From Acidimicrobiales bacterium (GTDB lineage Bacteria; Actinomycetota; Acidimicrobiia; Acidimicrobiales; Aldehydirespiratoraceae), in assembly GCA_029247365.1 (NCBI GenBank), contig JAQWLJ010000066.1:1-47414 (forward strand): a DNA stretch of 47,414 bases, given 5' to 3'. The notes under the pieces were generated by a model that was not told the origin of the DNA, did no database searches, and saw nothing but the letters and a program-made list of their open reading frames with translations. A program made the position numbers and the translations under genes. The number at the start of each line of letters is the position of its first letter. Position 1 is the first letter of the stretch. This document shows positions 9,844 to 23,454 of the stretch, piece by piece.

Positions 9844-12384
9844 ATGTCCGTTCGGCACCGAATTGTTTCGATGGGCCTGGTTGTGGTGTTCGCCATGGTG
9901 GCCGCCGCCTGTTCGGGGGGCGATGCCGAAGAGTCAGCACCGTCGACGACCACCGAGGCCGCACAGACGACCACGACCACCGATGCACCACCCGAGACGA
10001 CCACCACGACCGAGGCACCCCCGCCCTTCGAAGACCGGGCGTTCTACATCCTTCCGCCCGGCAACTTCGGCGGCCTCCCGACAAACAGCAACAGTCTCGA
10101 CCAACTCCCGCTTTATGACGGGTTGACCTCGCTGCGCGACGACATCGGGCGCGCCGACCTCGAAGCACTCTTCCTTCCGATGGACTTCCAGCCGGTCGGG
10201 CCGACCGAGGAGGTCGACGTCGGACGCGACGACGTCTCCGTCACCTACGACGACTTCGGCGTCCCCCACATCGTCGCCGAGACTCGCGAAGGCCTGGCGT
10301 TCGCCGCCGGTTGGGTGACCGGCCGTGACCGCGGTCTGCTGATCGACTTCGGCCGGGGCCCGGCGCGAGCGGCGATCGCCGACATCCCCGGCCTCGACGC
10401 GTTCTCACTCGTCACCAGCGCAACGCCCTACGTCCCAAGCCCATCGGTTGAAGCGCTCGTCACTGAGCAAGTGCAACTGATTATCGACACCTACGGCGAG
10501 GAGGGGCAGGAGATAATCGATGATGCGCAGGCCTACGCCGACGGTCTCAACGCCTACTGGGAGGCGACCGGGCAGGACCGCGAGCCGGCGACGGTCAACG
10601 ACGCCATCGCGACCACTGCGTTTATCGGGTCGATTTTTGGTGCCGGAGGCGGCTCAGAGCCGGCCAATGCGCAGTTCCTCGCCAGCCTCACCGATCGGTA
10701 CGGACCTGAGCAGGGCCGAGCGATCTGGGACGACTTCATGCAGACCGACGATCCAGAGGCGCCGACCACCCTCGACGAACGGTTCGAGTACGGCACCTTC
10801 ACAGGCGGCGACCTCACCGGCGCAGTTGTCCTCGAGGAGGACTCGATCGTCTCGTTCGATCCGTTCAACCCGACAGCGGGCGCAGTGCCGGTCCTCGTCT
10901 CGTACCAGGTCGATGCCGTCGAGAACCCGGTCGACCGGCAGGCGTCGAACTGGTTAACCGTGGCACCCGACGCGTCGACCAACGGCACGACTCTGGCGGT
11001 GATGGGACCCCAGCTTGGCTACTACTACCCCGAGATCGTGATGCAGATGCATCTCGATGGTCCCGGCATCAAGGCCCAGGGCGCAGCTGTGCCAGGTCTG
11101 GCGATGTACCTGCTGATCGGACGCACCGAGAACTATGCATGGAGCCTCACCTCGGCCAACCAGGACATCCGTGACGTCTTTGTCGAGGTTCTCTGTGAGC
11201 CGGACGGGAGCGAGCCGAACCGCACCACCGGCCACTATGAGTTCGAGGGGGAGTGCGTGCCGTTCGAGCAGTTCGACGCCGGCGTGATTGGCGACACCCC
11301 TATCAGTTACCCGGTCTCGGTCCACGGACCGTTCATCGGCACCGCTATCTGGGACGGCAAGCCGGTTGCCCTCACCCGGGCCCGGTCGACGTTCGGGCGT
11401 GATGGGCTCAACCTCAAAGCTCTCAAGGACATGACCGAGGGTGACGCCGACACACCGGAGAACTTCTGGGCTGTCGCCGACCAGTTCGGATTCACGTTCA
11501 ACTGGGGCTACGCCAACCGTGAGTCGATTGCCTACTTCGCCTCGGGCTACCTGCCAGTCCGGGCCGAGGGGCTCGACCGGCGGCTCCCAACGCTCGGCAC
11601 CGGCCAGTACGAGTGGCAGGGTTTCCTTCCGCTCGAAGCCCACCCACATGCTGCGGATGGGCCTGAAGGTCGGCTGCTCAACTGGAACAACCAGTCCGCC
11701 CCGGGCTTCATGCACGGCGATGGCAACCTCTACGGATCGTGGCATCGGGTCGAGAATTTCGATCAGTGGGACAGCGACGCGAGTCTCGAGGAGGTCGTTG
11801 GGGTGATGAATCGGGCTGCGACCGAGGACATCACTGCGCCGGTGTGGCCCGTGATTAGCGAGGTGCTGGCGGCCACCGATGCACCCTCGGATCTCGCCGC
11901 CGAGGCGGTCGCCCTGATCGACGCCTGGGTGGCCGACGACGCCTTTCAGTTCGACAGTGACGAGGACGGCGACTGGGACCAAGCCGAAACTCGTATCTAC
12001 CGAACGATCTTCGATCCGATTTTGGAGGCAGCGGTCGCACCGATTATCGGTGACGCGCTGGTCGACGGGATGCGGCTTCGCGGTATCGGCTTGGTGAGCC
12101 TGGTCGACAAGGATCTGCGATCGCTCGTCGGCACTGTCGAGGGCCCGTTCAACGTGAAGTACTGCGGCGCCGGCGACGTGAACCAGTGCAGTGCCGACCT
12201 GTGGGCGGCGATCGAAGCGGCGCTTGGCGCGGCCGCCGCCGAACTCGGCGATAACCTGTCGACGTGGCGGCGCGAGGGTCTGCGTAGCGGATTCACGCCG
12301 GGTCTGATCCCTGACGATTTCCGATCGACCAACCGTCCGACCTACCAGCAGGTGCTGGAGTTTGCCCCGGTGGGTAGCTCATGA
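9844..12384 (+). CDS. Penicillin-acylase-family (Ntn hydrolase) lipoprotein
   Basis: An 846-residue exported precursor. The signal peptide ends at the lipobox VAAAC (Cys23), and a Thr-rich linker (residues 30-60, TTTTT/EAPPETTT) follows. An alpha region with FGVPHIVAETREGLAFAAGWVTGRDR (about residues 138-165) comes next. The autoproteolytic nucleophile is Ser368 in RQASNWLTVAP, and the beta chain has VMGPQLGYYYPEIVMQMHLDG and a long C-terminal part. Family members are amidases cleaving N-acyl bonds (penicillins, acyl-homoserine lactones, N-acyl amino acids); the substrate here is unknown. The ATG has GAAAGGA upstream and lies 20 bp after the deiodinase-like gene, and its stop overlaps the next start (ATGA). 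It probably acts outside the cell, anchored to the membrane. Confidence 0.9.
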   Translation: MSVRHRIVSMGLVVVFAMVAAACSGGDAEESAPSTTTEAAQTTTTTDAPPETTTTTEAPPPFEDRAFYILPPGNFGGLPTNSNSLDQLPLYDGLTSLRDDIGRADLEALFLPMDFQPVGPTEEVDVGRDDVSVTYDDFGVPHIVAETREGLAFAAGWVTGRDRGLLIDFGRGPARAAIADIPGLDAFSLVTSATPYVPSPSVEALVTEQVQLIIDTYGEEGQEIIDDAQAYADGLNAYWEATGQDREPATVNDAIATTAFIGSIFGAGGGSEPANAQFLASLTDRYGPEQGRAIWDDFMQTDDPEAPTTLDERFEYGTFTGGDLTGAVVLEEDSIVSFDPFNPTAGAVPVLVSYQVDAVENPVDRQASNWLTVAPDASTNGTTLAVMGPQLGYYYPEIVMQMHLDGPGIKAQGAAVPGLAMYLLIGRTENYAWSLTSANQDIRDVFVEVLCEPDGSEPNRTTGHYEFEGECVPFEQFDAGVIGDTPISYPVSVHGPFIGTAIWDGKPVALTRARSTFGRDGLNLKALKDMTEGDADTPENFWAVADQFGFTFNWGYANRESIAYFASGYLPVRAEGLDRRLPTLGTGQYEWQGFLPLEAHPHAADGPEGRLLNWNNQSAPGFMHGDGNLYGSWHRVENFDQWDSDASLEEVVGVMNRAATEDITAPVWPVISEVLAATDAPSDLAAEAVALIDAWVADDAFQFDSDEDGDWDQAETRIYRTIFDPILEAAVAPIIGDALVDGMRLRGIGLVSLVDKDLRSLVGTVEGPFNVKYCGAGDVNQCSADLWAAIEAALGAAAAELGDNLSTWRREGLRSGFTPGLIPDDFRSTNRPTYQQVLEFAPVGSS

Positions 12385-12878: not shown

Positions 12879-14300
12879 TCAGCCGGTCGGGATCGGGGTG
12901 TGGTCGAAATGGAACGCGTCGAGGAGCGCGTTGCGTCCTCCGTAGTGCTCGATGAGCGCCTCCTGGCTTGCGAACGCTCGATCGTTCGCGTCGACGGGAT
13001 TGACGATCAAGCGGAGCTGCGCTTCGGCTTCGGTGAGGTCGGACGCGTACGCGGAGTCTGGTGCGAGGTTATGGAGCTCATCAGGGTCTGACGTGAGGTC
13101 GTACAGTTCGGGTTCGAAACCGACATGGTGAATGTATTTCAGTGAGCCGAACCGCAATGCGAAGCTGCCGGTGATCGATCCACCGTCGTGGTACTCCGAG
13201 AAGTTGACCCGGTCTGAGTCGGGTCGGTTTGCGAGTTCGACGAGTGATCGCCCGGCTGTGGTGTCCGGTTCGTCAGCTGCGACGGTAGCGGCGATCGTTG
13301 CATGGATATCGATGAGGTTGACCGCCGTGGTTGGATCAACGCCAACCGGCACTTCAGGTCCCGCCACGACCATCGGTACCTGCACGCTGTCTTGCCACAT
13401 ATAGGACTTTCCCCACAAGCCCCGGTTGCCGATCATGTCGCCGTGATCGGTGGTGTAGACGATCGTCGTGTCGTTGGTGGCTCCAACCCGATCGAGCGCG
13501 GCGAGCACCGCTCCGACGTTGTGGTCGAGCCAGCTGACCAGGCCGAGGTAGAGCTGGCGGCCAAAGCGGGTGCGGTCCTCGTCGAACGCGAGGTGGTACG
13601 GCAAGCTGGCGGCGAGGTGAGCAACAGCAGGATGCGTGATTGGTAGCGGCGGAATCTCGGGCGGCAGCTCGAGATCGAGGTACGGCTCAACGAACGTGCG
13701 CATCACTGCGAGCGGATAATGAGGCGCCACGAGTGAGATGAACAAGGCGAAGGGTCGATCGCCGCCGGCATTCGCCTCGATCCATTCGACGGAGCGTTGC
13801 GTTACGCGTGCGTCGTAGTGCGTGTACGACGATTCGGCGATTGCGCAGTCGCGGGCCATCTCGCTCGCCTGCTCATACGGGATCGGATCGCGGCGGGGGA
13901 GACCCTGAAGCCAACCCACACCGTCGACGATGTGCATCGGTAGCAATGACTCAGTCCAGCCGAAGTCGTCGTCTTCGCCCCTGAAGTGGAGCTTCCCGAT
14001 CGACACCGAATGGGCACCAGCGTCGCGGGCCATGTGTGCCCAACCCCGGGTGTCGCCGGTGTAGGCCTGAGCGCTGTCCCAGGTGCCGAGTTCGTGAACC
14101 CAGCGACCCGTCGCCATCGACGACCGCGCTGGCACGCAGATCGGCGACGGTGTCCAGGCGTTCTCGAACCGGGTTCCCCGGGCAGCGAGGGCGTCGATGT
14201 TGGGGGTCCGTACGTGGGGGTGGCCCGCGGCACCCAGACAGCGGGCGTTGTGCTCGTCGGAGCAGATCACGACGATGTTGCGGGCTCGATGGCCGGTCAT
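12879..14300 (-). CDS. Type I sulfatase, choline-sulfatase-like
   Basis: A 473-residue sulfatase. The N-terminal metal site is in VVICSDEHNAR (residues 11-20), followed by HVRTPNIDALAARGTRFENAW. The maturation motif is CVPARSSMATGR with Cys55 (C-x-P-x-R), so the Cys is expected to become formylglycine and needs a formylglycine-generating enzyme encoded elsewhere. The second metal motif is in VYTTDHGDMIGNRGLWGK. The C-terminus (LYDLTSDPDELHNLAPD and HYGGRNALLDAFHFDHTPIP) resembles choline sulfatases. The start at 14300 has TAGGTT seven bases upstream, and longer in-frame starts are discarded. There is no signal peptide, so it acts in the cytoplasm. Nearby sarcosine-type oxidases fit a role in releasing a sulfated small amine, by inference. 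Confidence 0.85.
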   Translation of the reverse strand: MTGHRARNIVVICSDEHNARCLGAAGHPHVRTPNIDALAARGTRFENAWTPSPICVPARSSMATGRWVHELGTWDSAQAYTGDTRGWAHMARDAGAHSVSIGKLHFRGEDDDFGWTESLLPMHIVDGVGWLQGLPRRDPIPYEQASEMARDCAIAESSYTHYDARVTQRSVEWIEANAGGDRPFALFISLVAPHYPLAVMRTFVEPYLDLELPPEIPPLPITHPAVAHLAASLPYHLAFDEDRTRFGRQLYLGLVSWLDHNVGAVLAALDRVGATNDTTIVYTTDHGDMIGNRGLWGKSYMWQDSVQVPMVVAGPEVPVGVDPTTAVNLIDIHATIAATVAADEPDTTAGRSLVELANRPDSDRVNFSEYHDGGSITGSFALRFGSLKYIHHVGFEPELYDLTSDPDELHNLAPDSAYASDLTEAEAQLRLIVNPVDANDRAFASQEALIEHYGGRNALLDAFHFDHTPIPTG

Positions 14301-14403
14301 GGCCAGCAACCTATCGGGCGGCCTTTCAGGCCCGGGATTCCGCCACGAATGGCCCGCCCCGCTCCGGCTCTGTGAACAGCTCGATCCAAGGTTCAAGCAC
14401 TAG

Positions 14404-15592: not shown

Positions 15593-16741
15593 ATGAGCAC
15601 AAACCGTCTCGACGTCGCCGTCATCGGGAGAGGCATGATCGGGGCAGCCGCAGGTCGCCATCTTGCAGAGGCGGGGCACCGGACGGCGCTGATCGGGCCC
15701 GGCGAGCCAGAGGATCGTCACACCAGCCAGGGACCCTTCTGTTCGCATCCCGACGAGGGCCGCATCACCAGGATCGCGGCCCGAACCCAGACGTGGTCAG
15801 ACGTGGCTGCGCTGTCGATCGAGCGGTACCCCGACATCGCCACCCGGTCCGGCATCTCGTTCCATACGCCTTGCGGTTTCATCGCGGCGTACCACGACGC
15901 CCCCGACTGGGTGGCGAGAGCAGCCAAGTACGGAAGCGACGCCCGGCTCGTCGACGCCGACTGGGTGCGCGAGACCACAGGCATCGCGATTACGAACGGG
16001 CTCGGCTTGGTGACCGAAGGCGCCCCGGCGGGCCATATCAACCCCCGCCGACTCGTCGCTGCGCAGACCGAACTCGCCCGCCTTGGTGGCGCCAACGTGA
16101 TCGACGCCGCAGTCCAAGGAGTCGTTCGGCGCAACGGCGGCTTCGAAGTGACCGGGCCATTCGGCGCAGTGATCGCCGATCGCATCCTCGTCGCCACCGG
16201 CGCCTTCGGTGCAGAGATGTTCGACTGGCAGCTCGCCGTCGAACGGCGGGCTCGATCGACCGTGATGGCCCGCCTCGCCAATGACGGCCGGATTCCCTGC
16301 CTGATCCTTGATCAGCCACCCGACGATCGGGTGCACGAGATCTACTGGGTGCCGCCGGTGGAGTACCCCGATGGCTCCGTTCGAATCAAGATCGGTGGCA
16401 ACCGCAAGGAGACCATCCTCCTGGAGCCCCATGAGCTCACCGACTGGTTTCACGGCGACGGCGACCCGATCGAGATCGAATCGCTCACCAACAACCTGTC
16501 CTCCTTGCTGCCGGATGCACCGCTGGGCGACATCGTCACCGCGCCGTGCGTCATTACCGGTACGCCGACCGGAGCGCCCTACATCGGGTGGATCGACGAC
16601 GGGGTGGCGGTCGCAATCGCCGGAAACGGATCGGCGGCGAAGTCGAGCGACGAACTTGGCCGCCTCGGCGCAACGTTGTTCTCCGACGCCGGATGGGACT
16701 CACCCCTCGACCCGGCGAACTTCTCGCCACAACTCCTCTGA
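15593..16741 (+). CDS. FAD-dependent amine/amino-acid oxidase, monomeric sarcosine oxidase-like (DAO family)
   Basis: A 382-residue flavoprotein. The N-terminal Rossmann motif is VAVIGRGMIGAAAGRHLAEAG (residues 8-28). The middle and C-terminal parts follow monomeric sarcosine oxidase / N-methyltryptophan oxidase. Cys319 in APCVITGTPTG sits where MSOX Cys315 (C-x-x-T-x-T-P) binds FAD covalently, followed by YIGWIDDGVAVAIAGNGSAAK near the end. Predicted reaction: oxidative demethylation or deamination of a secondary or primary amine, giving an aldehyde and hydrogen peroxide. The ATG has GACACT six bases upstream. It is first in the six-gene catabolic operon, 44 bp before an aldehyde dehydrogenase that could take its product. 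The substrate need not be sarcosine, for which a separate SoxBDAG enzyme exists in this window. Confidence 0.85.
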   Translation: MSTNRLDVAVIGRGMIGAAAGRHLAEAGHRTALIGPGEPEDRHTSQGPFCSHPDEGRITRIAARTQTWSDVAALSIERYPDIATRSGISFHTPCGFIAAYHDAPDWVARAAKYGSDARLVDADWVRETTGIAITNGLGLVTEGAPAGHINPRRLVAAQTELARLGGANVIDAAVQGVVRRNGGFEVTGPFGAVIADRILVATGAFGAEMFDWQLAVERRARSTVMARLANDGRIPCLILDQPPDDRVHEIYWVPPVEYPDGSVRIKIGGNRKETILLEPHELTDWFHGDGDPIEIESLTNNLSSLLPDAPLGDIVTAPCVITGTPTGAPYIGWIDDGVAVAIAGNGSAAKSSDELGRLGATLFSDAGWDSPLDPANFSPQLL

Positions 16742-16785
16742 TACCGCCCGTGCCCTGGGCTCTCGGGTGACGTAGCGTGCCCGCC

Positions 16786-18267
16786 ATGTCTGAACTCGTA
16801 ACGCTCAAGATGCTGATCGACGGGGAGTGGGTCGATGCCTCGGACGGCGCGAACTTCGAGTCCGCCGATCCAGCTACGGGCGAGGTGTGGGCAACGGTTC
16901 CCGAAGCTACCGAGGCCGATGTCGACCGTGCCGTTCGGGCGGCTCGAACCGCCATGACGACCGGCCCGTGGGGCCAGATGTCACCGAGCGAACGAGGCAA
17001 GTACCTGTACAAGCTCGGTGATCTGCTTGCAGGAGCCAGCGAGAAACTTGGCCGAGTCGAAACCCAAGACACCGGCAAGCTTTTCAAGGAGACCCGCTGG
17101 CAGGCGCAGTACATCGCCGAGTACTTCCGCTTCTATGGCGGTGCCCCCGACAAGATCAGTGGCGAGACCTTGCCGATCGACAAGCCTGACTTGTTCGTAT
17201 TCACGACGCGCGAGCCGGTCGGTGTGGTCGCCGCAGTTGTGCCGTGGAACTCGCAGATGTTCCTCGCTGCGGTGAAGGTCGGCCCTGCGATCGCAGCCGG
17301 CAATGCAATCGTGCTGAAAGCGTCGGAGCACGCCTCGGCGCCGCTGCTGAAGTTTGGTGAGCTGATCGCCGAAGCTGGCATCCCTGATGGTGTGGTCAAC
17401 ATCGTGACCGGCCACGGCGAACCCTGCGGACGGGCTCTCACCTCCCACCCACTCGTGGCGAAGGTTGCGTTCACTGGTGGTCCCGAGTCGGCCCGCCACA
17501 TTGTGCGCAACAGCGCAGAGAACTTCGCTGAGGTCTCGCTGGAACTAGGTGGAAAGTCACCCTTCATCGTGTTCGACGATGCCAACATCGAGAGTGCCGT
17601 CAACGGCTCAGTAGCCGGAATCTTCGGTGCCAGTGGGCAGAGCTGCGTGGCCGGCTCACGGTTGTACCTTCAGCGCGGAATCGTGGATGAGTTTCTCGCC
17701 CGGATGACCGAGGTCGTCGAAGGCATAGTCATCGGCGACCCGCAAGACGACGACACCGACATGGGTCCGCTGTGTACCCGAGGCCAGATTGATCACATCA
17801 AGCATCAGGTCGCGCTCGCAAAGGAGGAAGGCGGCACCGTCCTCACCGGTGGCGAGGTTATCGGTGGGGAGGACAGCCTCTTCTACCCGCCGACCATCGT
17901 CCAGTGCCCCCGACAGGATCTCACGATCGTCGATACCGAACTCTTCGGACCGGTACTCAGTGTGCAGGTCTTCGACACCGAGGACGAGGTCGTTGCACTG
18001 GCTAACGACACCCGGCATGGTCTGGCGGCCGGTATCTTCACCCGCGATAGCGCCCGATCGCTGCGAATGGCGTCGGCGGTGCGATCCGGCATCGTCTGGG
18101 TCAACACCTACCGGGTCATCTCGCCGGTTGCTGCGTTCGGTGGGACGCAGATGAGCGGCTACGGCCGCGAGGCTGGACTCCAGGCGATGATCGATTACAC
18201 CCGCCCAAAGACGGTCTGGATGAACACATCTGATGAATCGCTTTCGAACCCGTTCGTGATGCGGTGA
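16786..18267 (+). CDS. NAD(P)+-dependent aldehyde dehydrogenase
   Basis: A 493-residue ALDH with the full catalytic set: VVPWNSQMFLAAVKVGPAIAAGNAIVLK (Asn and Lys of the cofactor/active site), FTGGPESARHI, Glu253 in VSLELGGKSP, and nucleophile Cys287 in GASGQSCVAGSR. The late ELFGPVLSVQVF motif is also present. The length is normal. TAGCGT lies seven bases upstream of the ATG, so an internal promoter is possible in addition to read-through from the oxidase gene. In context it should oxidise an aldehyde produced by the preceding amine oxidase or by the flavin monooxygenase that follows 13 bp later. The substrate is not readable from sequence. Confidence 0.9.
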   Translation: MSELVTLKMLIDGEWVDASDGANFESADPATGEVWATVPEATEADVDRAVRAARTAMTTGPWGQMSPSERGKYLYKLGDLLAGASEKLGRVETQDTGKLFKETRWQAQYIAEYFRFYGGAPDKISGETLPIDKPDLFVFTTREPVGVVAAVVPWNSQMFLAAVKVGPAIAAGNAIVLKASEHASAPLLKFGELIAEAGIPDGVVNIVTGHGEPCGRALTSHPLVAKVAFTGGPESARHIVRNSAENFAEVSLELGGKSPFIVFDDANIESAVNGSVAGIFGASGQSCVAGSRLYLQRGIVDEFLARMTEVVEGIVIGDPQDDDTDMGPLCTRGQIDHIKHQVALAKEEGGTVLTGGEVIGGEDSLFYPPTIVQCPRQDLTIVDTELFGPVLSVQVFDTEDEVVALANDTRHGLAAGIFTRDSARSLRMASAVRSGIVWVNTYRVISPVAAFGGTQMSGYGREAGLQAMIDYTRPKTVWMNTSDESLSNPFVMR

Positions 18268-18280
18268 GGGGGAGCGGCCG

Positions 18281-19315
18281 ATGAAGTTCCAGATCGCAAT
18301 CAACCTCGAGCGGGTCGACGCATCTGCCGATATCCACGAAGTTCGCGACCACACCCTCGAGATGGTCAAGCTCGCCGACGAGGCCGGGTTCGAGATCGCC
18401 TGGGCGGCCGAACACCATGCGCTCGAGATGACCATCGCTCCCAACCCATTCCAGATACTCACCTGGTGGGCCGAGCACACGTCGAATATCCGTCTGGGCT
18501 CCGGGGTCGCCAACGCGGCGTACTGGCACCCGATCAACCTTGCGGGTGAAGCGGCGATGGTCGATCTGTTGTCGAATGGTCGCCTTGAGCTCGGTCTCGG
18601 GTCGGGCGCATATCAGCGTGAATTCGACCGCATGAAGCCCGGTCTCGCGCAGCCCGACAGCTGGCGGTACATGCAGGAGATGCTGCCCTTGATCCGGGAG
18701 CTCTTCGCCGGCGACGTCGAACATGACGGCGAGTACTGGCAGTTCCCGAAGGCGACGTCGTGCCCGAAGCCGGTCCAGGACGACGTTCCCTTCTGGGTGG
18801 CGGCCCGAGCACCGATCACGTTCGAGTACGCGATCGAAAACGACTGCAACATCATGAGCTGGCCGCTCACCCACCCGATGTCGGAGGTCGTCGAGTACCG
18901 CAGCCGCCTCGATGCGGCGGCCGCGGCCGTCGGTCGACCCTTCGGTGGGACGTGGGCTCTCATGCGCCATGCCGCCGTGTACGACACCGAAGAGGACCGC
19001 CAGGCCAGCCTTGCGGCGGTCCGCTACGTGCTGAGCCTGTTCGGCAATCTGATGATGGAGAAAGGTGACGTCGTCAACGGCTTCCCCGAACCCATCCCCT
19101 TCGAGGCAATGGACGGCAACTGGCGGGTCGACCCGGAGATGCTTGAAGAGAACCTGATGTTCGGGACCCCCGGTCAGGTTGTTGCCAAACTCAAGGCGTA
19201 CGAGGAGCTCGGCATCGACTCGTTCATTTACTACGCGTCGATGGGGCTCGGTATCGAGAACCAGCGTCGCTCGTTTGAACTGTTCATCGACCGGGTCATG
19301 CCCGAGTTTGTTTGA
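18281..19315 (+). CDS. LLM-class (luciferase-like) flavin-dependent monooxygenase
   Basis: A 344-residue TIM-barrel luciferase-family protein. It has FEIAWAAEHHALEM (the E-H-H motif near residue 45), RLGSGVANAAYWHPINLAGEAAMVDLLSNGRLELGLGSGAY (flavin-binding region, residues 70-110), and the C-terminal FGTPGQVVAKLKAYEELGID typical of the group. Such enzymes use reduced FMN and oxygen for Baeyer-Villiger, sulfonate or ring-cleaving oxygenations. A separate flavin reductase is needed and is not seen here. GAGGGGGAG gives a strong ribosome site before the ATG, consistent with an operon-internal gene. It is the only clear oxygenase in the cluster and so likely sets the chemistry of the pathway. 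Confidence 0.9.
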   Translation: MKFQIAINLERVDASADIHEVRDHTLEMVKLADEAGFEIAWAAEHHALEMTIAPNPFQILTWWAEHTSNIRLGSGVANAAYWHPINLAGEAAMVDLLSNGRLELGLGSGAYQREFDRMKPGLAQPDSWRYMQEMLPLIRELFAGDVEHDGEYWQFPKATSCPKPVQDDVPFWVAARAPITFEYAIENDCNIMSWPLTHPMSEVVEYRSRLDAAAAAVGRPFGGTWALMRHAAVYDTEEDRQASLAAVRYVLSLFGNLMMEKGDVVNGFPEPIPFEAMDGNWRVDPEMLEENLMFGTPGQVVAKLKAYEELGIDSFIYYASMGLGIENQRRSFELFIDRVMPEFV

Positions 19316-19330
19316 CTTCGGAGACCGACG

Positions 19331-19927
19331 ATGACCGTGACTATCCGCCGCACGATCCTGCACACGCAGACGACCTTCGAGGAGGGCGGCAAGACCGTCG
19401 ATGAGCCCACGCTGCTCGTTGCTGCGCTCGCCATCATTGAAAACCCGTGGTTCGGGCAGGGCTGGGTCGAGAACCTCCGGCCCGAGATCCGAACGCACGG
19501 GCCGGTCGTCGGCAAGCTGCTGACCGACATGATTCTTTCGGTATGCGGCGACCGGGTCGAGGGCTACGGCAAAGCCTCGCTCGTTGGGATGGGCGGCGAA
19601 CTCGAACACGCGCAAGCCCTCACCCACACGCTCTTCTTTGGCAACCAGTACCGCGAGGCGGTCGGCGCACAGACGTATCTGTCGTTCACCAATACGCGCG
19701 GCGCGTCGGGGACGTCATTGATGATCCCGCTTATGGACAAAGACGATGGCGGCCGTCGTTCGCGCTACCAGACCATCCACGTCCAGGTTCCGGACGCGCC
19801 GGCCGACGACGAAGTGATCGTCGCCCTTGGCGCGTCGGTCGGCGGCCATCCGCATCACCGCATTGGTGACCGCTACCAGGATCTCGAAGAGATGGGCCAC
19901 GACCTCGACAACCCCGCTGGGGTATGA
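19331..19927 (+). CDS. Amino acid synthesis family protein (DUF1185, PF06684-like)
   Basis: A 198-residue cytosolic protein. The start TIRRTILHTQTTFEEGGKTV, then ALAIIENPWFGQGWVENL, HGPVVGKLLTDMIL, GKASLVGMGGELEHAQALTHTLFFGNQYREAVGAQTYLSFTNTRG and DALGASVGGHPHHRIGDRYQD-type C-terminus match the DUF1185 family. Its database name (amino acid synthesis) has little experimental basis. The members I recall sit in catabolic clusters with luciferase-like oxygenases and hydrolases, as here. Conserved His, Glu and Gly-rich stretches (GGELEHAQA) hint at an enzyme. It follows the LLM gene by 15 bp and precedes the alpha/beta hydrolase by 9 bp. Confidence 0.8.
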   Translation: MTVTIRRTILHTQTTFEEGGKTVDEPTLLVAALAIIENPWFGQGWVENLRPEIRTHGPVVGKLLTDMILSVCGDRVEGYGKASLVGMGGELEHAQALTHTLFFGNQYREAVGAQTYLSFTNTRGASGTSLMIPLMDKDDGGRRSRYQTIHVQVPDAPADDEVIVALGASVGGHPHHRIGDRYQDLEEMGHDLDNPAGV

Positions 19928-19936
19928 GGCTCGTTC

Positions 19937-20728
19937 GTGTCTGAGCGAGCGCCTGATGGCACGGCCTTCGACGTCGCCGGCGACGGACCGCCCGTTGTTC
20001 TCATCCATGGGCTCGGCTTGTCCATGGAGCTCTGGGACGCGTCGCTACCAATGTGGGCCGAGCGACACCGCGCTATCCGGTATGATCTGTTCGGCCACGG
20101 CGAGAGCGCTCCCGTTCCCCGCACGGCTGACCTCCGCCTCTACGCCGAGGCGATCGTCGGGCTCCTCGACCACCTCGATATCGAGCAGGCGCACATCGTT
20201 GGCTTCTCGATCGGCGGGATGATCAACCGGCGTCTTGCGCTCGACTTTCCCGAGCGTGTTGCCTCATTGGCGATCCTCAACTCGCCGCACGACCGAGGCG
20301 AATCTGCCCAGCAGATGGTCGAAGAACGGGCTGCGACGGTCCGTAACCAAGGTCCACTGTCAACGATGGACGACGCCCTGAAACGTTGGTTTACGCCCGG
20401 GTATCTCGACGCCCACCCCGAACACGAGGAGGCGGTGCGCCGCTGGCGGGTCGCCTCCGAACCCGAGAGCTATGCCCAGGCCGTGTGGGTGCTGGCCAAC
20501 GGGGTGCGGGAACTGTGCGGACCCGCGAAGCCAATCATCTGCCCGAGCCTCGTCATCACGTCGGAATTCGACTCCGGAAGTACGCCGGCTATGACCCGAT
20601 CGATCGCCGCAGAGATCCCCAGGGCCGAGACCCTGATAGTGCCCACGATGCAACACCTCGGATTGATGCAGGACCCGGCCGCGTTCGTCGAACCGGTGCT
20701 CTCGTTTCTGAAAGGACTCGACCCGTGA
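19937..20728 (+). CDS. Alpha/beta hydrolase (3-oxoadipate enol-lactonase-like)
   Basis: A 263-residue hydrolase starting with GTG. It has HGLGLSMELWDA (oxyanion region), RYDLFGHGESAPV, and the nucleophile elbow GFSIGG with Ser91. The catalytic Asp is likely in VITSEFDSGSTPAM and the His in TMQHLGLMQDP. The architecture matches the lactonase/esterase branch (PcaD-like) that opens lactones or C-C cleavage products. The gene overlaps the next start (GTGA at 20725-20728), so it is translationally coupled to the ThDP enzyme. A lactone or ester made by the LLM monooxygenase would be a natural substrate; that is inference. Confidence 0.85.
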   Translation: MSERAPDGTAFDVAGDGPPVVLIHGLGLSMELWDASLPMWAERHRAIRYDLFGHGESAPVPRTADLRLYAEAIVGLLDHLDIEQAHIVGFSIGGMINRRLALDFPERVASLAILNSPHDRGESAQQMVEERAATVRNQGPLSTMDDALKRWFTPGYLDAHPEHEEAVRRWRVASEPESYAQAVWVLANGVRELCGPAKPIICPSLVITSEFDSGSTPAMTRSIAAEIPRAETLIVPTMQHLGLMQDPAAFVEPVLSFLKGLDP

Positions 20729-22410
20729 CCGTTCGATCAGGAGGCCAGGCCGCCGTCGACGTCCTACAGGCCGAGGGCATCAGTCATGTCTTCGGCCTGA
20801 TCGGCTCCGCCACGATGGAGCTGTTCGACGCGCTCTACGACGTCGACGATATGGCGTTCGTTGGGGTTCACGACGAACGCACTGGAACGCACATGGCGGA
20901 CGGTTTTGCTCGTGCGTCGGGCCGCGCCGGCGTGATCGTTGCAGGTCAGAACGGCCCCGGTGCGACCAATTTGATCACCGGTTTGGCCCAAGCAAAGGCT
21001 GCATACTCGCCGGTCATCGCGCTTGCAGGCGCGCTTGCTTCCGGTCACCTGTACCGCGACGCGTTCCAAGAGGTCGATCAGCAAGCCCTGTTTGCACCGG
21101 TCACAAAGAAGGTCTGGACAGCGCCGTCGACTGACCGAGTGCCAGAGCTGGTTCGCGAAGCGTTTCGGGTCGCGCTTACGCCTCGGTGCGGCCCGGTCCA
21201 GGTCAACCTGCCTCGCGATGTGCTTGCGGGCACGGCTGACTTCGACGTCCACACCTCGCCGGGCGCTTACCGAAATCAGACCGTCCCAGCCGCCGATACC
21301 GATGCAGTCGCCCAAGCGGCGGCACTGCTGGTTGGCGCCGACCGGCCGGTCATCATCGCAGGTGGCGGCATCAAGAACACGGCAGGCCACGAGGCCGCGA
21401 CCGAGCTGGCCGAGGCGATTGGGTGTCCAATCGTCACCTCGCCCGGCCACGGTGACGCCATTCCCTATGCCCATCCGCTCAACGGCGGCCAGATGGGCCC
21501 GCGAGGCAACGTCGTGGCGAGCAGACTTGTGAAGGAGGCCGACGTCATCCTCGCTCTCGGCACTCGCCTTGGCTTCAACTCAACCTTCTACTCCCACGAC
21601 CACCTCAACCCGGACGCGAAGATCATCCACGTCGAGCTCGAACCGACGGCGATCGGTCGCTTCTTTGACGTCGAGCTCGGTATCTGGGGCGATGCGGTCA
21701 CAACGGCCCGCCAGCTGACAGCCGCCGTCGAGGTGCGGGGACGACGAGCGGAGGCAGAAGCGTGGACTGCTGCGTTCCAGACGGAACGCAGCTCGTTTTT
21801 GGTGGATCGTGATGTCAACGCCGACGAGTCCCATCCCACCCAGCCCTCAGGCCTGTTCAAGGCGCTCCGCTCTGTTCTGCCCCGTGACGCCGTCATCACC
21901 CTCGATGCCGGAACCTTGTGTCTCCAAGCCCATGATCAGCTCGAGTACCACGAGCCGCGGAGCCTCTTCACTCCCCTCGACTTCGGACTCGTCGGGTTCT
22001 CGTTCGCAGCCGGACTCGGGGCCAAGCTCGCCCGCCCTGAACGGCCGGTCGTGAGTCTTCTGGGTGATGGCGGCTTCGGCATGACGGTTTCGGAGCTGTC
22101 GACTGCGGTCGATCACGGCATCGACACCACCACGATCGTGATGAACAACGCGTGCTGGGGTGCGGAGAAGGCGTACCAGCGTGACTTCTTTGATGGCCGC
22201 TACATCGGCGCCGACATCTCGAGCCCGCCCTTCGATCAACTTGCTGACCTCTACGGTGCGAAGGGTTTCAGGGCCGAAACGCTCGCCGACGTCGGCCCGG
22301 CAGTAGAAGCCGCGATCGCCTACGAGGGCCCATCGGTGGTCGACGTCGCGGTCGATCCCGATGCGCTCTACAGCTTCCGCCGCGACAGCTTCACGCATCG
22401 AGGCGGTTGA
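20725..22410 (+). CDS. Thiamine-diphosphate-dependent enzyme, acetolactate synthase / sulfoacetaldehyde acetyltransferase-like
   Basis: A 561-residue ThDP enzyme. The N-terminal PYR domain has the catalytic Glu51 (VHDERTGTHMADGFARASG) and GQNGPGATNLITGLAQA. A central domain has ADRPVIIAGGG. The C-terminal PP domain has the cofactor motif GDGGFGMTVSELSTAV...MNN. NNACWGAEKAYQRDFF followed by FDGRYIGADI resembles the WGAEKKNQ.DFY..R..G segment I recall from Xsc (sulfoacetaldehyde acetyltransferase), which gives acetyl phosphate and sulfite; acetolactate synthases and oxalyl-CoA-type enzymes are alternatives. The GTG start overlaps the hydrolase stop, and a long in-frame upstream extension from 20386 is merely antisense-like. 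It is last in the six-gene operon. Confidence 0.85.
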   Translation: MTVRSGGQAAVDVLQAEGISHVFGLIGSATMELFDALYDVDDMAFVGVHDERTGTHMADGFARASGRAGVIVAGQNGPGATNLITGLAQAKAAYSPVIALAGALASGHLYRDAFQEVDQQALFAPVTKKVWTAPSTDRVPELVREAFRVALTPRCGPVQVNLPRDVLAGTADFDVHTSPGAYRNQTVPAADTDAVAQAAALLVGADRPVIIAGGGIKNTAGHEAATELAEAIGCPIVTSPGHGDAIPYAHPLNGGQMGPRGNVVASRLVKEADVILALGTRLGFNSTFYSHDHLNPDAKIIHVELEPTAIGRFFDVELGIWGDAVTTARQLTAAVEVRGRRAEAEAWTAAFQTERSSFLVDRDVNADESHPTQPSGLFKALRSVLPRDAVITLDAGTLCLQAHDQLEYHEPRSLFTPLDFGLVGFSFAAGLGAKLARPERPVVSLLGDGGFGMTVSELSTAVDHGIDTTTIVMNNACWGAEKAYQRDFFDGRYIGADISSPPFDQLADLYGAKGFRAETLADVGPAVEAAIAYEGPSVVDVAVDPDALYSFRRDSFTHRGG

Positions 22411-22463
22411 GCCGACCCGGCAGTATCGAGGCGGTTGAGCCGAGCCAGGGGCCCGAGGCGGTT
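22397..22463. repeat. 19-bp direct repeats containing a stop codon, 28-bp period
   Basis: ATCGAGGCGGTTGAGCCGA occurs at 22397-22415 and identically at 22425-22443. A partial third copy, CGAGGCGGTT, lies at 22454-22463. The first copy contains the end and TGA stop of the ThDP gene, and the partial third copy touches the stop of the convergent gene at 22462. It looks like duplication of the gene's 3' end. Confidence 0.75.
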
Positions 22464-23454
22464 ATGGCAGGCGGAAGTCGTTACGGGTCGGGTTCAGCCC
22501 TTCGCTGATGGTGGTGTAGCCGCGGCCGTCGATGTGAATGGCGATCGACTCGCCTTGAACTTCGGGAACCGACGGCGCCTCACAAGGGGCGAGCATCAGC
22601 GCGTCTGCGACGCTCTGACCAGGAACCCGGTCGAAGAGCCAGATGGTGTCGTACGTGCGAACGGCGATGACCGAGCCGTCGGCGGAGAGATCGGCGGCGC
22701 TCACGACGCCGCCGACGGCGAGGGCGCCCCTCTCGACCGCTTCATTCACCGCTGCGGCTGGATCGAGTCGCACCTCGAAGATCCTGGCCCGATTATCGGG
22801 CCTGTCCTTGGTGATGATTGTGGCGACGGATCCGGTTTCCTCGACGATTAGTGCCTCGGCGTCGGGGCGGCCTCCCATGTACGTGATGGGGTAGGTGGTG
22901 TTGACGCGAGTGACTTCGTCGACCCGGACAATTCGTACCGACGGCCGGATGCCGAGGTTGTCGCCGATGTCGGCGACGAAAACAGCGTCGGCGGTGGTCG
23001 ATGCATCCTCCCAGTCGAGGGCGACAGCTTCGGCGGTGAATACATCCGACGTTGTCCCGTCGTCGGCTAGGGCGAAGACGCGGGCGACGTCGCCTGAGTC
23101 GTTGTGGGCGTAGAGAACAGTCGGATTGCGGCGGCTGAACGCAATGCCCGAAATCTCGGTAAGGCGTTCGTCGGCGACGACCGGACCCGACTCGTGCACC
23201 GCCCCGACACAGAGGTCGATCGCACTGATTCCGGTGGACGGTGCTCCGGCCGGCGGGGGTCCCGATCTCGTGCTGGTCGTTGACGACACGGGCGGCAGTG
23301 GGGCTTCGCTCGCCATCGATGCCGTGGGAGGGTCAGATGCCCCAGTTGGTTCGTCGGCTGATGAACATCCCCCGACGAACAGGGTCACGGCGAAGACGGC
23401 GATGGCGCGCACGGGCCGAGTCTTACGCACAGCCTTGCCGATACGCGGTCGCAC
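22462..23454 (-). CDS. Secreted lipoprotein with predicted beta-propeller (phytase-like/esterase-like) domain
   Basis: About 330 residues. The signal peptide has the lipobox LFVGGC and is followed by a Pro/Ser/Thr linker. The rest shows repeated beta-propeller-like blades: ISGIAFSRRNPTVLYAHNDSGDVARVFAL, VALDWEDASTTADAVFVADIGDNLGIRPSVRIVRV, DAEALIVEETGSVATIITKD, and VSAADLSADGSVIAVRTYDTIWLFDR. This pattern occurs in many actinobacterial secreted proteins of unknown function. Asp-rich DIGDN and HNDSG motifs could bind calcium. No ATG precedes the signal peptide; GTG at 23454, 23430 or 23412 could start it and I use the first. It converges on the ThDP operon and diverges from the alkylation-repair genes. 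Confidence 0.75.
   Translation of the reverse strand: MRPRIGKAVRKTRPVRAIAVFAVTLFVGGCSSADEPTGASDPPTASMASEAPLPPVSSTTSTRSGPPPAGAPSTGISAIDLCVGAVHESGPVVADERLTEISGIAFSRRNPTVLYAHNDSGDVARVFALADDGTTSDVFTAEAVALDWEDASTTADAVFVADIGDNLGIRPSVRIVRVDEVTRVNTTYPITYMGGRPDAEALIVEETGSVATIITKDRPDNRARIFEVRLDPAAAVNEAVERGALAVGGVVSAADLSADGSVIAVRTYDTIWLFDRVPGQSVADALMLAPCEAPSVPEVQGESIAIHIDGRGYTTISEGLNPTRNDFRLP

Follow-up and report, generated by a model that had tools for sequence, protein, structure and literature searches.

It was found that five adjacent genes on contig JAQWLJ010000066.1 of an Acidimicrobiales bacterium (assembly GCA_029247365.1; the whole analysed stretch of 47,414 nucleotides is called the window) form a conserved unit. 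The genes encode an aldehyde dehydrogenase (ALDH), a luciferase-like flavin monooxygenase (LLM), a DUF1185 protein, an alpha/beta hydrolase, and a thiamine diphosphate (ThDP) enzyme, and the FAD amine oxidase (DAO) gene directly upstream lies outside the unit. The chances are about even that this block is a horizontally moving catabolic cassette of the trigonelline ring-opening kind, located downstream of a resident gene for an amine oxidase. Direct support exists for the five-gene unit and its spread, for the lack of the block at the corresponding site of congeners, for its kinship with the trigonelline (tgn/trc) cassettes, and for the distinct clade of its ThDP enzyme.

Conservation of a five-gene unit

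The initial annotation of the window had read six co-directional genes, DAO included, as one catabolic operon. Their order, the intergenic gaps of 44, 13, 15, and 9 bp, and the 4-bp GTGA overlap of the hydrolase and ThDP genes were all verified (Table 1). All six family labels are above the Pfam cut-offs (AA_synth is the former DUF1185, and the window protein scores 193.6 bits against a gathering cut-off of 27). The operon-like set is genuine, since its genes are intact at 58–88% protein identity in a congener and their order is kept in many genomes.

Is the set conserved as six genes? When named genomes were scanned with the ThDP enzyme as anchor, ThDP relatives of any degree were confirmed at 468 places, and the best 80 of them (L059 to L138; ThDP identity of 68–81%) were used. 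Consisting of the closest relatives, this sample is biased towards a conserved order, and several of its contigs are short. A first count accepted matches to the window proteins with more than 35% identity over half of the length and includes a small number of distant paralogues, among them an ALDH of 39% in L060 and a DUF1185 of 40% in L092. By this count, the hydrolase was found in 74, the LLM in 66, the ALDH in 57, DUF1185 in 55, and DAO in none of the 80 loci. A search at an E-value of 1e-6 likewise gave no DAO match in any of them. Among nine other window genes, the short-chain dehydrogenase (SDR) gene alone was found, one time. A strict count used only the 64 loci whose upstream flank reaches 5 kb or more and required identities of at least 55, 50, 50, and 40% for ALDH, LLM, DUF1185, and the hydrolase, respectively. 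All four partners are present in 42 of these loci, DUF1185 only is missing in 8, and one to three partners are present in 14. Thus, the co-occurrence across genomes on which the initial annotation had staked its operon holds for five of the six genes, and the conservation of the block is far beyond chance. The five-gene set occurs in Roseobacters, SAR116, Rhizobiaceae, Granulosicoccaceae, and Acidimicrobiales, and its carriers are mostly marine, judged by record titles. Beyond the closest ones, 5 of 35 genomes with a DUF1185 match were viewed in detail.

Absence of the block at the congener site

Of the 248 genomes of the order, 15 (with the window's own among them) hold DAO relatives at an E-value of 1e-60 or better. 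Two congeners (genomes G271 and G205) both have a DAO 71% identical to the window DAO, and the stretches that contain it (L207 and L208, respectively) share the window's gene order of SDR, DAO, down1, Ogt, aldolase, and malate synthase; the last four names come from reading translations without a database search. The whole block is absent at this site. In blastn, nucleotide homology ends at window position 16742 and restarts at 22466, and in L207 a TauE/SafE-like gene occupies the block's place behind DAO. Since the congeners keep DAO in the same order without the block, it is suggested that the block is a mobile cassette placed beside a resident oxidase gene. The six-gene unit is ruled out by this residency and by the lack of a DAO match in the 80 loci. 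On the same grounds, amine oxidation by DAO, which had been proposed as the first step of the pathway, was dropped. DAO may be co-transcribed with the block now, which does not imply a shared pathway. The case is a caution against reading pathway steps off one genome, as the first gene is present by position only.

G271 has a block of its own on another contig (L033), with 71% nucleotide identity to the window block and accompanied by a divergent LysR gene. This LysR was matched in genome G273, but at an E-value of 1e-15 neither the window genome nor G205 gave a match to it. No DUF1185 match was found in the G205 genome. In the ThDP tree, the window enzyme pairs with that of L060 (97/95) and the G271 enzyme with that of G273 in L034 (99/98), so the blocks of the window and G271 are not sisters. 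Separate acquisition of a mobile cassette would be the simplest reading. The results suggest that modules of this kind are transferred between phyla as whole units.

Table 1. Positions of the block, its flanks, and nearby features in the window
Feature	Position	Strand	Remark
FAD amine oxidase (DAO, MSOX-like, Cys319)	15593-16741	+	upstream of block; resident backbone gene, outside cassette
Aldehyde dehydrogenase (ALDH)	16786-18267	+	opens conserved block; Pfam Aldedh
Luciferase-like (LLM) flavin monooxygenase	18281-19315	+	Pfam Bac_luciferase
DUF1185 / AA_synth (PF06684)	19331-19927	+	Pfam; Arg at reported His144 position
Alpha/beta hydrolase	19937-20728	+	Pfam Abhydrolase_1; PcaD-like, under cut-off
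ThDP enzyme	20725-22410	+	Pfam TPP_enzyme N/M/C; clade beside Xsc
Segment without counterpart at syntenic site of two congeners	16743-22465	.	blastn homology ends 16742, restarts 22466
22-nt direct repeat, two copies (22397-22418, 22425-22446)	22397-22446	+	right end of block
Sulfatase-family gene	12879-14396	-	Pfam scan of window

As for the individual features, Cys319 of DAO, which the initial annotation had named as a covalent flavin site, exists, and Cys occupies that column in all 16 aligned relatives; the phmmer alignment of DAO to solved sarcosine oxidases spans residues 3–210 only and stops short of it. In the hydrolase, motif reading places Ser91 within GFSIGG and gives His240 as a candidate. 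For the 22-nt direct repeat, neither congener stretch has a close match. No tRNA was found in a tRNA scan, and a promoter and terminator scan gave a result at chance level. Where the window has the sulfatase-family gene beside SDR, L207 has a creatinase/prolidase-family peptidase and an EamA transporter. Of the window's penicillin-amidase-family gene (9844-12384), no more than a 116-residue match remains at the syntenic place in L208.

Kinship with trigonelline-type cassettes

Plasmid-borne cassettes of Sinorhizobium meliloti (pSymA), Caballeronia, Phyllobacterium, and Ruegeria have genes for DUF1185, a hydrolase, a flavin reductase, an LLM, and an ALDH in a row. The pSymA cassette is located between noeB and nifT, a region that I take to be the trigonelline (trc) region, and the comparison cassettes are presumably of the tgn (Acinetobacter baylyi) or trc (S. 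meliloti pSymA) type. The tgn trigonelline cassette of A. baylyi is said to have been described by Perchat in 2018; TgnC is presumably its ALDH and TgnD its hydrolase. To my knowledge, trigonelline degradation is the sole characterised pathway with this set of LLM, ALDH, hydrolase, and DUF1185.

Three of these cassettes (Ruegeria, S. meliloti pSymA, and Caballeronia) were used for the identity comparison. The window ALDH is 54–57% identical to the three trigonelline-type ALDHs versus 34% to three succinate-semialdehyde dehydrogenases (SSADHs), and the window DUF1185 is 55–63% identical to its three trigonelline-type counterparts. An SSADH gene lies near the trigonelline-type cassettes L056 and L153. 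Two SSADH queries matched 55 and 57 of the best 80 loci, and the listed positions (14 each) are those of the block's own ALDH; some loci may hold a second ALDH, and L092 carries further ALDHs. In PMC8269262, TgnA/TgnB are given as the enzymes that open the aromatic ring, and PMC11354265 places TgnB, which belongs to trigonelline degradation in A. baylyi, among the luciferase-like enzymes. No publication on the gene set of the window was found among the titles listed in the literature searches, whose coverage mostly leaves out subscription papers.

A ThDP clade beside Xsc

The ThDP enzyme of the window has the WGAEK..QRDFF segment, from which the initial annotation had drawn a likeness to sulfoacetaldehyde acetyltransferase (Xsc). 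The segment is confirmed, and in the alignment WGAEK marks an Xsc superclade, one member of which has YGAEK. Glu51 is aligned with the Glu of Xsc and acetolactate synthase (ALS), and GDG at 447 and NN at 474 are kept. However, the enzyme scores 411 bits against the Xsc cut-off (TIGR03457) of 676, with a query that started five residues ahead of the GTG start, and 377 bits against the ALS cut-off (TIGR00118) of 538. In a tree of 22 rows including Xsc, ALS, Gcl, and PoxB, it falls in a clade of its own type (100/99), and the nearest relatives outside this clade are two Ruegeria enzymes, one encoded on a megaplasmid and one on a plasmid, joined at 100/100. This assemblage joins Xsc in the superclade (98/97), apart from ALS, Gcl, and PoxB. 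The approximately unbiased (AU) test rejects a grouping of the window enzyme with Xsc alone (p = 2.8e-62) and with ALS (p = 4.7e-5). Accordingly, identity with Xsc is excluded by score and AU test, and so is identity with ALS, the outcome that the initial annotation had set against its own proposal. As judged from scores and trees, the enzyme is neither Xsc nor ALS and belongs to an undescribed clade of its own beside Xsc. The analysis thus points out an unassigned ThDP clade.

Could the enzyme nevertheless work as Xsc does? The initial annotation had considered a sulfonated N-alkyl compound, such as an N-methyltaurine relative, as the substrate of a pathway in which DAO, ALDH, and an Xsc-type ThDP enzyme act. 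The position of the clade beside Xsc fits this idea, as do DUF1185 genes next to Xsc-grouping ThDP genes in L046 and L047, a TauD-like gene in 5 of the 80 loci, and the TauE-like gene behind DAO in L207. On the other hand, DAO is outside the cassette, the ThDP enzyme is far under the Xsc cut-off, and the window genome encodes a separate, true Xsc (973 bits). No phosphotransacetylase match was found in the 80 loci, with a single Caballeronia Pta query and in flanks of at most 9 kb on contigs that are in part short; this search covered the loci and not the window itself. The sulfatase-family gene that had been linked to the operon does exist nearby, but tblastn with the sulfatase gave nothing at the locus of the two congeners. 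A sulfonate pathway is therefore very improbable.

The Ruegeria relatives offer another setting for this kind of enzyme. Their operons combine the ThDP gene with an MttB-family gene, a class III aminotransferase gene, and two FAD oxidoreductase genes, which is a quaternary-amine type setting too. In Ruegeria pomeroyi DSS-3 (L150:2360-11680), the aminotransferase is GSA-aminomutase-like, and the scanned FAD oxidoreductase has a GcvT-like part.

Proposed pathway and candidate substrates

I propose the following scheme for a cassette of the ring-opening kind. The LLM would be supplied with reduced flavin by a reductase encoded elsewhere in the genome and, by its kinship, would open the ring of its substrate, a probably marine quaternary N-heteroaromatic betaine, and so yield an N-formyl enamide aldehyde. 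This ring-opened aldehyde would be oxidised by the ALDH, and the hydrolase, aided by DUF1185, would free formate and an oxo product together with an amine, probably methylamine. In place of the SSADH of trigonelline cassettes, the ThDP enzyme may then cleave or decarboxylate this oxo product, either by decarboxylation of a 2-oxo acid or by Xsc-like cleavage of an aldehyde that carries a leaving group. A heterocycle opened by the LLM/DUF1185 pair, the other hypothesis of the initial annotation, fits best. More tentatively, and with the balance leaning against it, the block may stand for an undescribed, marine-wide pathway for an abundant quaternary N-heterocycle, in which an Xsc-sister ThDP lyase replaces SSADH and carries out a new reaction on the product of ring opening, and DUF1185 is a general partner of such modules.

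The substrate clues come from the neighbours of the best 80 loci, counted at no less than 33% identity and 60% coverage. The companions are LysR (54 loci), a 110-residue protein without a Pfam match (30), a RutF-like flavin reductase (23), CMD (20), a ProV-like ATPase (16, some of them generic), OpuAC/ProX (9), GmaS with MgsABC-type genes (5), a TauD-like protein (5), and MttB (5, with two queries). One GmaS-type protein was scored, at 650 bits against the NCBIfam cut-off of 470, and the GmaS/Mgs-type set would indicate methylamine use. These clues, with betaine-transporter and methylamine-type genes among them, suggest a methylated quaternary amine, which kinship would narrow to an N-heteroaromatic one. 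The occurrence of the cassette in many marine heterotrophs makes a common ocean metabolite its probable substrate. In the window genome itself, one GmaS-type protein over the cut-off, six MttB, and one OpuAC were found.

Homarine is a marine candidate substrate. In PMC8269262, it is described as abundant, as lacking a characterised pathway in 2021, and as probably too sterically hindered for TgnA/TgnB, so a different LLM would be expected for it. PMC13390433 cites a conserved environmental homarine pathway in which Mgd takes part. The block is mostly marine, its five enzymes come with a LysR match in 54 of the 80 loci, and GmaS/Mgs-type genes adjoin five of them. A homarine operon with five enzymes and a regulator was reportedly named by Ferrer-Gonzalez et al. 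in Nat Microbiol in 2026. If the block were this operon, its pathway and substrate would already be known, but this is quite unlikely. A homarine route via N-methylglutamate would need a reductase and not a ThDP enzyme, and a better match is the LLM-DUF1185-hydrolase-Ldh_2 (PF02615) set seen in genome G075 of the same family (L037:4359-8018), whose Ldh_2 could reduce an imino acid in a possible N-methylglutamate-forming variant. Moreover, R. pomeroyi takes up homarine, although it grew less well on this compound than on trigonelline (PMC8269262), and the best 80 of 468 loci include none from R. pomeroyi.

Several observations weigh against a ring-opening cassette. The window LLM is only 35–38% and the hydrolase 30–32% identical to their three trigonelline-type counterparts. 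The block has no flavin reductase gene, and a reductase match was found in just 23 of the 80 loci; three PF01613 reductase genes lie elsewhere in the window genome. The nearer LLM paralogues are of a sister type. The window LLM is 64% identical to the LLM of Aminobacter pSR3, and in both Aminobacter and Parasedimentitalea the paralogues have acyl-CoA genes as neighbours, with no obvious ring substrate. A second LLM was found in 7 of 16 chosen ThDP-type genomes. All five of those viewed (L183 to L187) are of the sister type (68–74% identity to the Aminobacter LLM), four of them adjoin a sister-type ALDH gene, and in the LLM tree some ThDP-type loci hold LLMs nearer to the sister type. No LLM more than 41% identical to the Ruegeria trigonelline-type LLM was found in the 16 genomes chosen from the 80, so that no split of roles between the two cassette types in a single genome is visible. 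The pointers to the substrate come from the neighbourhoods of a minority of loci only. In addition, G271, which has the block, has no GmaS-type protein over the cut-off, and G205, which has no block, has three MttB, so the GmaS, MttB, and OpuAC proteins of the genome do not discriminate. Finally, no chemistry is known to me that would connect an Xsc-like enzyme with the products expected from ring opening.

Some of these points would suit a different reaction, in which the LLM acts as a Baeyer-Villiger or N-dealkylating enzyme on a non-aromatic betaine (carnitine- or polyamine-like), the hydrolase cuts an ester, and the ALDH is of the betaine-aldehyde or aminobutyraldehyde type. The best matches of the ALDH among the curated NCBIfam families are betaine-aldehyde and aminobutyraldehyde dehydrogenases, each under the cut-off. 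The acyl-CoA-type genes that adjoin the sister LLM cassettes L054 and L055 are annotated as enoyl-CoA hydratase-related or carnitinyl-CoA dehydratase, 3-hydroxyacyl-CoA dehydrogenase, 3-keto-5-aminohexanoate cleavage protein, and acyl-CoA dehydrogenase. However, the ALDH is closer to the trigonelline-type ALDHs than to the SSADHs, and a non-aromatic betaine seems rather unlikely. Because of the sister LLMs with acyl-CoA genes and the ALDH near betaine-aldehyde types, confidence in the ring-opening cassette is held at one half.

DUF1185 as a possible partner protein

The initial annotation had stated that DUF1185 has no established activity. According to PMC7913881, the DUF1185 protein HcdD is homologous to TgnF, and TgnF stimulates the oxidation of succinate semialdehyde by TgnE, while no such effect was observable for HcdD. 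The statement is thus correct only in part. No paper about TgnF was among the matches listed in the literature search. By analogy with TgnF, DUF1185 may be a helper in the hydrolysis step, and the analysis sets it a testable role as the partner of LLM ring-opening modules. Against a fixed partnership, DUF1185 is missing from the neighbourhood in 16 of the 64 loci of the strict count, so it is not always required next door. His144 of the family has been called strictly conserved (PMC2954203). The window protein has Arg in this column, assigned through an alignment to the letters from 2QTP and 3BYQ, and 54 orthologues have His (53) or Tyr (1).

In two order-mates, a DUF1185 gene lies directly next to an Xsc-grouping ThDP gene (L046:7230-9714 and L047:8945-11427). 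The L047 ThDP enzyme scores 1006 bits against the Xsc cut-off of 676, and a TauD-like gene, a sulfatase-like gene, and aminotransferase genes are nearby.

Comparison with known systems

Three known systems and one annotated operon resemble the block in part. Xsc shares the WGAEK segment and the superclade with the ThDP enzyme of the window and differs from it in score, in clade, and in the lack of a Pta match in the 80 loci. The ThDP enzyme of the R. pomeroyi megaplasmid operon (L150) is 46% identical and the nearest one outside the clade in the material compared, but this operon is annotated without LLM, ALDH, DUF1185, and hydrolase genes, unlike the window. The Rut pyrimidine pathway of Escherichia coli (RutA-F) likewise has an LLM ring opener, an alpha/beta hydrolase, and an FMN reductase, and the flavin reductase of one relative of the block matches RutF best, under the cut-off. 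The window LLM does not group with RutA, whose branch is very long in the LLM tree.

The tgn/trc cassettes differ from the window block in gene order and in having a flavin reductase and an SSADH, neither of which was recognised in the block, whereas the window operon ends with the ThDP enzyme. The window LLM falls outside the trigonelline-type clade, in which four trc rows join at 100/100 in the LLM tree, and thus the window set was not filed as a tgn/trc member. In both systems, the LLM, ALDH, alpha/beta hydrolase, and TgnF-like DUF1185 genes stand together in one cluster.

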